Position numbers and translations under genes: made by a program | Notes under the pieces: model-generated | Seen by the model: the letters and a program-made list of their open reading frames with translations, nothing else | Told to the model about the DNA's origin: nothing | Databases searched by the model: none | Part shown: piece by piece, positions 20,748-54,537 of the stretch | Layout: each line of letters starts with the position of its first letter | Numbering within the stretch: the first letter of the stretch is position 1 | Origin: Roseobacter cerasinus | GTDB taxonomy: Bacteria; Pseudomonadota; Alphaproteobacteria; Rhodobacterales; Rhodobacteraceae | NCBI RefSeq assembly: GCF_009811755.1 | Contig: NZ_BLIV01000002.1 | Coordinates: forward strand, 427,001-491,000 | Direction: 5' to 3' | Length of the DNA: 64,000 bases

Positions 20748-22543
<1,796 letters not shown>

Positions 22544-22583: not shown

Positions 22584-24140
22584 ATGAAGCTCACCGTCTG
22601 GACATATGAGGGCCCGCCCCATGTGGGCGCCATGCGCGTCGCCACCGGCATGACCGGCCTGCATTATGTGCTGCACGCGCCGCAAGGCGACACCTACGCC
22701 GATCTTCTCTTCACGATGATCGAGCGGCGCAACCATCGCCCGCCGGTCACCTATACGACCTTCCAGGCCCGCGATTTGGGCTCGGACACGGCCGATCTCT
22801 TCAAAACCTCACTACGGGACGCCTACAATCGCTTCCAACCCGAAGCGCTCATCGTCGGGGCCTCCTGCACCGCCGAGCTTATCCAGGACGATCCGGGCGG
22901 CATGTCCGAGACCATGGATATTCCCGTGCCCGTGATCCCGCTGGAGCTGCCGAGCTATCAGCGTAAGGAGAACTTCGGCGCGGATGAGACCTTCTTCCAG
23001 ATCGTGCGCGCGCTGGCCAAGCCGATGGAGCGTACGGCCCAGATCACCTGCAACCTGATCGGGCCGACCGCGCTTGGGTTTCGCCACCGCGATGACATCA
23101 CGGAAGTGACCTCGCTGCTCAGCGACATGGGGGTGAGCGTGAATGTGGTGGCCCCGATGACCGCAAGTCCTTCCGACATCGCGCGCATGGGCGCGGCTCA
23201 TTTCAACGTGCTGATGTACCCCGAAACGGCGGAGAGTGCCGCCCGCTGGATGCAGCGCGAGCTGGGCCAGCCTTACACGAAAACCGTGCCCATCGGTGTC
23301 GGCGCCACCCGCGATTTCGTGGCCGAAGTGACGCAGATCACCGGGCGCGATCCCTATCTGGACGACAGCCGGTTGCGTCTGCCCTGGTACTCCAAGTCCG
23401 TCGACAGCACCTATCTCACCGGCAAACGCGTCTTCCTTTTCGGCGATGGCACCCATGTGGCCGCCGCGGCCCGCATCGCGCGGGACGAGATGGGCTTCGA
23501 GGTTGTGGGCCTGGGCTGCTACAACCGCGAAATGGCGCGGCCCCTCCGGACGCTGGCCAAGGACTATGGCCTCGAGGCGCTGATCACCGACGACTATCTC
23601 GAAGTCGAGCGGGTGATCGAGACGCTCCAGCCCGAGATGATCCTCGGCACGCAGATGGAACGGCACATCGGCAAGCGCCTTGGCATCCCCTGCGCGGTGA
23701 TTTCCGCCCCGGTGCATGTGCAGGATTTCCCGGCGCGGTATTCGCCGCAGATGGGCATCGAAGGCGCAAATGTGATTTTCGATACCTGGGTGCACCCGCT
23801 GGTCATGGGGCTGGAAGAGCACCTGCTGCACATGTTCCGGGACGATTTCGAGTTCCACGATGCGGCGGGCCCCTCGCACCACGGTGGCCGTGCGGTGAGG
23901 CCGGACGTGGCAGGGGGGCCAGCCCCTGCGGCTGCGCCGCCCCCCCGGGATATTTCTGGCCAGAAGAAGCCGGGCGCGGAGGTGATCTGGCTGGCGGATG
24001 CGGAACGGGAGCTGAAGAAAATCCCGTTCTTTGTGCGCGGCAAGGCGCGGCGCAATACGGAGGTCTTTGCGACGGAACGCGGGGTGTCCGAGATCAGCGT
24101 CGATACGCTTTACGAGGCGAAGGCCCATTATGCGCGATGA
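22584..24140 (+). CDS. bchB: Light-independent protochlorophyllide reductase subunit B
   Basis: A 518-aa partner of BchN. D36 (QGDTYADL), the unusual aspartate ligand of the NB cluster, and C95 (VGASCTAEL) are present. D274 in SVDSTYLTG matches the proposed catalytic acid. The catalytic part ends near residue 430. A proline/alanine-rich linker (about 436-466) then joins the C-terminal PCP-reductase domain (about 467-515), which binds nucleotide-free BchL and substrate. The linker is encoded by a copy of a repeat found elsewhere only in intergenic DNA. The gene overlaps bchH by 11 nt. Confidence 0.95.
23912..23969 (+). repeat. Dispersed repeat translated within bchB
   Basis: A GC-rich self-complementary part (GGGGGGCCAGCCCC ... 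GCCGCCCCCC) is followed by GATATTTCTGGCCAGAAGAA at 23949-23968. The latter 20 bases recur exactly at 52782-52801 in the bchY-bchZ gap. Here it is in frame and encodes the linker [19 protein letters not shown]. Confidence 0.8.
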
Positions 24141-49021: not shown

Positions 49022-49963
49022 TTGGACACCACAGCCGTTCTTCTAGAAGGTCCGCGTGATCTGAAGGTCGACACCCTGGCGCTGAAAGCGCCGGAGGCTG
49101 AGGATCTGGTGGTCGATATCACTCATTCCGGCATCTCCACCGGCACGGAAAAGCTCTTCTGGTCAGGCGAGATGCCACCTTTTCCCGGCATGGGGTACCC
49201 GCTTGTTCCGGGCTATGAGGCGGTTGGCGAAGTGGTTGAGGCGACGCCTTCCACCGGCTACAGGCCCGGTGATCATGTCTTTGTGCCGGGTGCCAATTGC
49301 TATGAGGGGGCCTTTGGTCTCTTTGGTGGTGCGACGGCACGGTTGGTCACATCACCCGACCGTGTGACGCGAATCGACCCGGGCCTTGGTGCGCAAGGGG
49401 CTTTGCTCGCGCTGGCAGCCACGGCGCGGCACACGATGGCCGGTTTGAACAAATCCGTGCCCGATCTGATTGTGGGCCACGGCGTTCTGGGCCGTTTGCT
49501 GGCGCGGTTGACGATTGCCGCAGGCGCACCGGCGCCGACGGTCTGGGAGATTGATCCCGCACGCCGCGGTGGGGCCGAGGGTTATCCTGTGATCGCACCC
49601 GACGACGACCCGCGCCGCGACTATACTTCCGCCTATGACGCCTCGGGCAGCATGGATGTGCTGAACGATCTTGTGGGCCGGATCGCCAAGGGGGGCGAGA
49701 TCGTTCTGGCCGGGTTCTACACCGAGCCTGTGCAGTTTGATTTCCCGGCGGCTTTCATGAAGGAGGCACGGTTCCGCGTTGCAGCGGAATGGACCCATGA
49801 TGATCTGGCAGCCACCCGCGCTCTCGTCGAAAGCGGAACGCTCAGCCTGGGTGGGTTGATCACCCATGCCGTTCCGGCCGCGCAGGCCCCCGATGCCTAT
49901 ACGCGCGCATTCACGGACGCGGCGTGTCTGAAGATGATCCTCAACTGGAGGGATGCGGCGTGA
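49022..49963 (+). CDS. bchC: 3-hydroxyethyl bacteriochlorophyllide a dehydrogenase
   Basis: A 313-aa medium-chain dehydrogenase that oxidises the C3 hydroxyethyl group to acetyl, the last step to bacteriochlorophyllide a. Typical blocks are [39 protein letters not shown] and [16 protein letters not shown] chose a TTG start at 49022: AGGAGAG lies 6 nt upstream and the product then begins [14 protein letters not shown] as in the family. The alternative GTG at 49001 has no site. It overlaps bchX by GTGA. Confidence 0.9.
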
Positions 49964-50991
49964 AAGACGGTATTGAAGAGAAGCGCCCGGCTGAGAGTGA
50001 CGCGCCGAACCTAAAAGAGTTCGACCAGCGCCTGCGCGCTGAGGCCGCTGAGCCGACGCTGGAGGTGCCGCAGTCTGAACCGACGTCCAAGACACAGATC
50101 ATTGCGATCTATGGCAAGGGCGGGATCGGCAAGTCTTTCACCCTCGCCAACCTCAGCCACATGATGGCGGAACAGGGCAAGCGGGTGCTGTTGATCGGCT
50201 GCGATCCCAAGTCTGATACGACGTCGCTTCTGTTCGGCGGCAAGGCCTGCCCGACGATCATCGACACCTCGACCCGCAAGAAACTGGCGGGAGAAGAGGT
50301 CAAGATCGGCGATGTCTGCTTCAAGCGCGGCGGTGTTTTTGCCATGGAGCTGGGTGGCCCCGAAGTGGGTCGTGGCTGTGGCGGGCGTGGCATCATCCAT
50401 GGGTTCGAATTGCTTGAGAAGCTTGGGTTCCATGACTGGGACTTTGACTATGTGCTGCTCGACTTTCTGGGCGACGTCGTCTGCGGCGGCTTCGGCCTGC
50501 CGATTGCGCGGGACATGGCGCAGAAGGTGATCCTGGTCGCGTCGAACGATCTGCAGTCGCTTTACGTGGCCAACAACGTTTGCTCGGCGGTGGAGTATTT
50601 CCGCAAGCTCGGTGGCAACGTGGGTGTGGCCGGTCTGGTGATCAACAAAGACGATGGCACTGGCGAGGCGGCGGCCTTTGCGGACGCGGTGGATATTCCG
50701 ATCCTCGCGGCGATCCCGCAGGATGATGACTTGCGCAAGAAATCGGCCAACTATCAGATCGTCGGAACGAAAGAGAGCCAGTGGGGCGGCCTCTTTGCTG
50801 AACTAGGCTTGAACGTGGCCGAGGCCCCGCCGATGCGCCCCGCGCCGTTGGATCAGGACGGCTTGCTGGGGCTGTTCGATGCCTCCGAGACCGGCGGCGA
50901 CGTGGTGCTGGAACCTGCGAGTGATGCGGATATGCGCGGCAAGAATTCCGCGCCTAGGCCCTCGTTGGAGGTGGTCTATGACAACGCGTGA
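49960..50991 (+). CDS. bchX: Chlorophyllide a reductase iron protein subunit X
   Basis: A 343-aa NifH-like ATPase that donates electrons to BchY-BchZ for ring B reduction. The P-loop is GKGGIGKSF (52-60), and the cluster cysteines are C140 (GRGCGGR) and C175 (DVVCGGF). The GTG at 49960 has GGAGGG upstream and overlaps the bchC stop; the longer frame lies inside bchC. Its last 14 nt overlap a small 57-codon frame before bchY. Confidence 0.95.
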
Positions 50992-51147
50992 CCGGGTTCG
51001 GGCAAGTCAGGACACCATGGCGCGGGCGATCTGGCACAGCCAGCAGTCGACGACACTTTTTGAATCGAGCCAAGAGACAATTTCCCAGTCCATTCGCCTG
51101 ATGGAGATGATGCGCGGTCTGCTACCTAACGTTGGCTGGTCCCTCGA

Positions 51148-51151
<4 letters not shown>
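50978..51151 (+). CDS. 57-aa small protein coupled between bchX and bchY, unknown
   Basis: A 57-codon frame in the bchX-bchY junction. GGAG lies 7 nt before its ATG. It overlaps the bchX end by 14 nt, and its TGA overlaps the bchY ATG (ATGA). The product starts [20 protein letters not shown], has no cysteine or membrane helix, and is predicted helical (ESSQETISQSIRLMEMMRG looks amphipathic). It matches nothing I recognise. It fills a gap that would otherwise be about 156 bp in an operon with almost no gaps, which argues that it is real. It could be a chlorophyllide reductase accessory protein or merely a translation coupler. Confidence 0.65.

Positions 51152-54537
<3,386 letters not shown>

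Follow-up and report, generated by a model that had tools for sequence, protein, structure and literature searches.

Genes and overlaps at the bchX-bchY junction

The window, a stretch of 64,000 nt from Roseobacter cerasinus, carries bchX and bchY with a 57-codon open reading frame (ORF) between them. The gene bchN was found in the same window at 21317, and thus the junction is part of a larger photosynthesis gene cluster. The features of the junction, all on the forward (+) strand, are listed below.

49960..50991, +: bchX, encoding the iron protein of chlorophyllide a oxidoreductase (TIGR02016 over cut-off; GTG start read from the sequence)
50967..50971, +: GGAGG ribosome-binding site within the bchX codons for L-E-V, 6 bases 5' of the ATG
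50978..50991, +: 14-nt overlap of the ORF start with the end of bchX (bchX stop at 50991)
50978..51151, +: group C small-protein gene, 57 aa, ATG to TGA
50984..51121, +: codons 3-48, predicted single continuous helix (AlphaFold2)
51122..51148, +: codons 49-57, low-confidence loose tail (AlphaFold2)
51148..51151, +: ATGA overlap of the ORF end with the bchY start (bchY ATG at 51148)
51148..52719, +: bchY, encoding the catalytic subunit of chlorophyllide a oxidoreductase (TIGR02015 over cut-off)

The ORF starts with the ATG at 50978 and stops with the TGA at 51149-51151. The first-pass annotation had reported this frame with its Shine-Dalgarno-like sequence, its length and its overlaps on both sides, and all of these were confirmed; without the ORF, bchX and bchY would be separated by 156 nt (50992-51147). 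Its description of an operon in which most neighbours overlap holds for bchC and bchX, which share 4 nt (GTGA at 49960-49963), and not for bchY and bchZ, which are 100 nt apart (52720-52819). In Novosphingobium, bchY and bchZ overlap by 4 nt.

Two kinds of repeat were observed in the window. One copy of the dispersed repeat CCCGGGATATTTCTGGCC lies between bchY and bchZ at 52777-52794 and another one at 23944-23961; the genome possesses four exact copies, and none of the reversed control. Peptides resembling this repeat were recognized by eye within the small ORFs of two other junctions (L039, L227) and also in the BchY extensions of L112 and L186. A perfect 9-bp inverted repeat with an SD-like core, TGGAGGTGA/TCACCTCCA, is located just within bchY at 51185-51209.

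Small ORFs at the bchX-bchY junctions of Rhodobacteraceae

The gene bchX was detected in 17 of the 19 genomes of the genus (two were without it) and in 119 of 295 genomes of the family. A total of 210 loci with both genes gave 180 distinct junctions from Rhodobacteraceae in the broad GTDB sense. They were assembled from the named loci of the GTDB collection (best 80 of 557), one-per-genus samples and the genus of the window, and do not constitute a random sample. L031, L038 and L140, where no bchY was found, and ten loci without the genes were left out ahead of the count of 210; L256, also without bchY, was left out as well. An ORF was called coupled if it had an ATG at -14, -11 or -8 relative to the end of bchX, at least 18 codons, and an NTGA overlap with an in-frame bchY start.

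A single, doubly coupled ORF is present in 87 of the 180 distinct junctions. Its ATG is at -14 in 61 cases, at -8 in 25 and at -11 in one, and it ends with ATGA (63), GTGA (21) or TTGA (3). No coupled ORF was found in 72 junctions, in which a candidate bchY start lies no more than 30 nt from, or inside, the end of bchX. The remaining 21 were classified as other. Eleven of these carry an ORF of one of the sequence groups described below: the second, bchY-adjacent ORF makes the overlap in seven (L004, L006, L045, L090, L135, L210, L216), and a group A or B ORF has no exact overlap with bchY in four (L052, L065, L129, L173). An odd junction with a very long tree branch, L174 (genome G250), is possibly due to an assembly or frame problem.

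The pattern exceeds chance: in 84 of the 105 distinct junctions without a candidate bchY start within 30 nt of bchX, an ATG at -14, -11 or -8 opens a frame that continues to an NTGA overlap with bchY. Since frames as short as this remain open in 44% of shuffles on average, in a test conditional on openness, the open frame alone is weak evidence; the weight of evidence comes from the double coupling and from the codon models. Outside the family, none of 25 records (24 genomes and one Novosphingobium plasmid) has a coupled ATG ORF at -14, -11 or -8. Their candidate bchY starts lie between -26 and +48 nt, and one GTG frame among them is apparently fortuitous.

Within Roseobacter, the full-length ORF (57-59 codons) is present in 16 of 17 distinct junctions. 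In the other one (L210, genome G014) the ORF has 29 codons instead of 57 and keeps a GTGA link to bchY; here the coupling outlasted the body of the protein, which is evidence that the coupling itself matters. These observations agree with the first-pass proposal of a genuine, apparently undescribed gene that is coupled on both sides and whose frame is kept in related genomes. The use of the same slot across the family by several kinds of ORF goes beyond what the window alone could show.

A few of these ORFs have database entries. The R. litoralis gene RLO149_RS23885 (WP_158308178.1) on plasmid pRLO149_94 is at the same place as the window ORF, has 57 codons with the 14-nt and 4-nt overlaps, and belongs to group C; its automatic name, 'hypothetical protein', comes without any function statement. 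Unnamed entries exist at the same place in R. ponti, Tateyamaria omphalii and Sulfitobacter sp. S190. Thalassococcus sp. S3 possesses a coupled 37-codon ORF at the junction, yet no gene is annotated there. A tblastn search of the 57 residues against plasmids gave no match, and the plasmid copies were reached via BchX instead.

The start signal of the ORF resides in the bchX tail, as the final codons L-E-V-[VI]-Y-D are able to spell GGAGGTG. Compared with the counts expected from each gene's own codon use, GGAGG is in excess at junctions with a -14 ORF (32 of 61, 19.7 expected), at tandem or other junctions with a -14 or -11 start (9 of 14, 4.2 expected) and where bchY starts at -8 (6 of 7, 2.2 expected). 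It was found in 3 of 42 junctions, against 12.9 expected, where bchY starts elsewhere. The -8 ORFs (7 of 25, 8.7 expected) and the junctions whose bchY has its own start at -14 or -11 (5 of 23, 6.4 expected) show no enrichment. The GGAGG signal is therefore real for the -14 ORFs and not uniform. In Novosphingobium it is bchY itself that starts at -14, and the small ORFs thus seem to have adopted a start site that serves bchY in other organisms.

Profile searches sorted the slot ORFs into at least three groups, A, B and C, with the window ORF in C. Group A has the pattern M-F/L/C-D-L-x-x-L...L-D/E-x-A-L and is 28 aa long in R. sphaeroides; its residues 1-3 are set by the end of bchX, so only residues from 4 on count. 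Group B is recognized by A-R-P-D/E-Q-I-x-R-L-L-x-D-I, in which Q, L and D are invariant in 25 sequences. The label C was also given to two Tateyamaria ORFs outside the genus (L029, L043). Fifteen coupled ORFs fit no group, and ten junctions could not be labelled. Since the profile models were trained on the small set to which they were applied, the E-values of group assignment are not independent. The window has C alone, and B is followed by C in tandem in four Roseobacter genomes (L004, L006, L210, L216), including the one whose BchX is nearest to that of the window (L004, genome G012; 95%). Other two-ORF junctions have another ORF followed by A (L045, L090, L065) or by B (L135).

Matches of group B in the 295 family genomes below E 1e-10 number 15, and all 15 are beside bchX; 14 of them were in the model-building set, and the independent one, from G215, has an ORF with the same overlaps. 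Six more, with E from 2e-4 to 0.008, look like chance. Group C was found in 198 family genomes only at this junction, in the window's genome; two weak extra matches (E 0.004-0.008), one with internal stops, look like chance as well. For group A, the R. sphaeroides member was searched genome-wide within one genus. On a FastTree phylogeny of BchX and BchY with 178 rows (L073 and L141 left out), in which 49 of 174 inner branches are weak, presence and absence of the ORF changed at least 33 times when the 10 unlabelled rows were left out. With six labels, and tandems counted under their first group, the fewest changes were 52. Judged from this tree, the turnover of the slot is high, though the number of changes is rough.

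An origin of the ORF from a split or duplicated BchY N-terminus is not supported, as BchY keeps an N-terminus of its own ahead of the conserved core, 62 residues long in the window and 40-94 in the class where bchY starts close to bchX. Long frames that match the group profiles, judged collectively, looked like upstream extensions of the frames of the small ORFs themselves.

Selection and predicted structure of the small proteins

Selection was estimated with a one-ratio codon model, in which the null of omega 1 allows any non-stop change. The group C set was chosen by location only and comprised 16 sequences and 54 columns outside the overlaps; the short ORF of L210 was left out. With a free neutral rate, omega is 0.27 (2dlnL 118 against omega 1), and it rises to 0.73 (2dlnL 35) with the neutral rate tied to bchX and bchY. 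In twelve data sets simulated at omega 1, the estimates of omega ranged over 0.76-1.43 and 2dlnL reached no more than 10.3, with three of the twelve above 3.84; the test is somewhat liberal, yet the simulations remain far from 118. Neither a loss of the frame in related genomes nor a dN/dS near 1 with frameshifts was seen, either of which the first-pass annotation would have counted against the gene, although with the tied neutral rate omega is no lower than 0.73.

Omega is 0.12 in codons 6-17 and 0.27 in codons 18-45. The rest gave 0.56, which is not significant (2dlnL 2.3). Measurable purifying selection thus covers codons 6 to about 45, and from about codon 46 omega is indistinguishable from 1. 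For comparison, omega of bchX and bchY is 0.026 and 0.038. The only two C pairs close enough for direct counts are rich in replacements: one has 6 synonymous and 4 replacement codons, the other 8 and 13, respectively. The C protein is constrained and fast-evolving, and its amino acid sequence is under weak to moderate selection.

The other groups are likewise below 1. Group B (25 sequences) gave omega 0.16-0.30 with 2dlnL of at least 160. For group A, omega was 0.37-0.40 in the set chosen by similarity, 0.42-0.48 (2dlnL 20-100) in a set of 25 without L174, L199, L202 and L207, which is no strict clade, and 0.44-0.49 (2dlnL 15-75) in 20 basal rows without L174. The test on a strict clade, in which the ORF occurs at every one of the 14 junctions, gave 0.40-0.43 (2dlnL 15-62 over 16 codons). 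Choosing members by similarity, as in the profile-based groups A and B, lowers omega, and a fairer test is provided by the strict A clade and by the C set, which was chosen by location only.

These results bear on two alternatives. If the ORF arose by chance or is decaying, or if it is an RNA element rather than a protein that is conserved, the low conservation of the protein would be accounted for (the 16 sequences share 3 invariant positions out of 57), and open frames of such shortness are common in GC-rich DNA. Length and both overlaps are nevertheless kept across the genus, omega is below 1, and the codon-position GC pattern is like that of bchY. As for RNA, we found no Rfam family at threshold (one match, E 0.99), no consensus pairs in 12 sequences, and a fold z-score of -0.12, and the RNA element thus has no support; we regard this whole alternative as very improbable. 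The ORF is a real small-protein gene.

The main rival is a pure translation coupler, an ORF kept open only to bring ribosomes to bchY over inserted DNA, whose peptide would be inert. The ORF overlaps both of its neighbours, as a coupler would, and the NTGA link to bchY occurs in every group, with 87 single ORFs and 7 that come second. The link is also kept by the 29 codons of L210 and by the shortest coupled ORFs, of only 18 codons (L037, L050, L059). The ORFs of L039 and L227 are coupled too, although inspection by eye suggests that they run through a dispersed intergenic repeat. An inert peptide should display omega 1, and this was not found for A, B or C, except that the C-terminal part of C does not differ significantly from it. 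The difference between 118 and the simulated maximum, and the invariant Q, L and D of group B, argue against it as well. Moreover, at 72 of the 180 junctions bchY has its start near bchX without an ORF between them, so a coupler ORF would be needed only if DNA was inserted. We consider this rival rather unlikely.

AlphaFold2, with an alignment of 16 rows, modelled the window protein with mean pLDDT 89 and pTM 0.57. Hydrophobicity has a period of 104 degrees (reached in 0 of 2000 permutations) and conservation one of 102 degrees (p 0.03). The window protein is thus predicted to be one long amphipathic helix. One modelled B member displays short helices at lower confidence (72.8), and group A looks helix-like, as read from its sequence pattern.

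The window protein has no match in Pfam to E 10, in NCBIfam to E 1, or among PDB sequences to E 10, and these searches revealed no homology to BchX, BchY or BchZ that would make it a structural subunit. The library scans covered groups B and C, with the NCBIfam scan of C made for the window protein. In Pfam, no family was matched by more than one of the 16 C members (best E 0.067) or more than two of the 25 B members (best E 0.007), and in NCBIfam none by more than three B members (best E 0.005). PDB profile searches gave best E-values of 0.12 and 0.31, and no chain matched C in Foldseek, where a single helix is uninformative for fold comparison. In the PDB, BchY is closest to chains of protochlorophyllide reductase (best E 3e-8), so no docking argument can be drawn from a solved structure.

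The protein might also act elsewhere, for example on a regulator, on photosystem assembly or on tetrapyrrole flow, and merely share the expression of the operon. A free-standing helix can bind many partners, and the link to the reductase is one that we infer. Against such a role stand the strong B matches solely at bchX-bchY (15 of 15), the restriction of C to the same place in the 198 family genomes, and the placement of the gene between, and coupled to, the genes for two subunits of the same enzyme; we regard it as distinctly unlikely.

Possible roles of the slot proteins

Our preferred explanation, held tentatively at somewhat less than an even chance, is that the slot proteins, that of the window included, are small helical helpers of chlorophyllide a oxidoreductase whose synthesis keeps pace with that of the subunits. 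Ribosomes ending bchX would start the ORF from the GGAGG in the last bchX codons, an architecture that is observed, and those ending the ORF would start bchY at the common ATGA, so that the product would be made in step with BchX and BchY. The product would bind BchX or BchYZ and aid assembly, stability or control, and would not be needed for catalysis as such. A counter-point is that a single helix such as the predicted one could bind anything. In other Rhodobacteraceae the slot holds small proteins of groups A and B, also helix-like, and it has thus been filled, emptied and refilled repeatedly. A family-wide need for the ORF was not observed, as it is absent from 72 of 180 junctions.

The first-pass annotation had offered both an accessory factor and a translation coupler, and the data suggest both. 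We think that both roles are real in part, with the coupling as the constant and the protein as an evolving cargo. Its further proposal, protection of the enzyme from oxygen in an aerobe, is not supported as a specific role and was dropped as the lead, because presence of the ORF does not track the aerobic lifestyle, judged from organisms that could be named. Group A occurs in R. sphaeroides and its genus, which are facultative phototrophs, and the 72 junctions without the ORF include records of Roseibacterium (L034, L089, L092), whose members are aerobic phototrophs.

Genome G085 was recognized as R. sphaeroides by its BchN, with 204 of 204 residues identical to PDB 8vqh_A, and its PufL, with 282 residues without difference to 4in5_L, chains which we take to come from this species. 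Its junction, MLDLDTLARLDQALRQIAARQKRKGAGR, holds an A-type ORF of 28 codons that starts 8 nt within bchX and ends with ATGA at bchY. A 28-codon A-type ORF with an ATGA end was found in all five species of the genus searched. R. capsulatus was not placed (best BchN match 74%).

For a 'minimum set' of 18 genes for bacteriochlorophyll a in E. coli, R. sphaeroides bchCXYZ was amplified as one fragment, according to the available part of the report (PMC10443036). Provided that the strain matches G085, the E. coli set therefore probably included the A-type ORF without listing it. Purified BchX and BchYZ from R. capsulatus and Blastochloris viridis are described, in the text available, as active in vitro without a small protein (PMC4432870). 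In Dinoroseobacter shibae, bchX and bchY have consecutive locus tags in the photosynthesis cluster list as excerpted (PMC6052148), and transposon mutants of bchX, bchY and bchZ are without pigment, with nothing named between these genes in the accessible sections (PMC10890935). The ORF is not mentioned in the available part of PMC6739100. No description of it was found in the accessible literature on these genes, the enzyme, small proteins or coupling, a coverage largely outside subscription papers.

The pathway is committed to bacteriochlorophyll by chlorophyllide a oxidoreductase, an enzyme so far treated as made up of BchX, BchY and BchZ. It is possible, though still doubtful, that the enzyme of Rhodobacteraceae has an overlooked, fast-turning micro-subunit slot, into which small helical proteins of different origins were placed one after another, to be produced along with the subunits and to act upon the enzyme; the 18-gene E. 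coli set would then hold an unlisted 19th ORF. A slot for small proteins is present in this operon also in R. sphaeroides and was probably carried unnoticed into a reconstituted pathway. The junction is a clear case of one operon position refilled many times by different small genes with the overlaps unchanged.

Known small proteins and ORFs offer some comparisons. Accessory proteins of nitrogenase-like or photosynthetic complexes, such as CowN and PufX, are small and lineage-restricted like the window protein, and are not known to be related to it in sequence. PufX spans the membrane; unlike it, the window protein has no obvious membrane span, and its partner is inferred. The gene for PufX is part of the operon of the complex that PufX serves (available part of PMC6052148). 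Minigene or coupler ORFs that tune downstream translation, as presented in the accessible text of PMC8708949, are short ORFs that influence the next gene, as the window ORF could; unlike them, the latter has an amino acid sequence under selection and is coupled on both sides.

Cysteine motifs recur among the slot proteins, although the window protein has no Cys. A CxxC near the N-terminus was observed in group B (L053, L055, L135, L147, L184, L202), and a Cys-Pro near the C-terminus in long A members (L060, L068, L107, L123, L129, L163, L175, L188, L197, L198). By their sequence, these motifs could serve in metal or heme binding.
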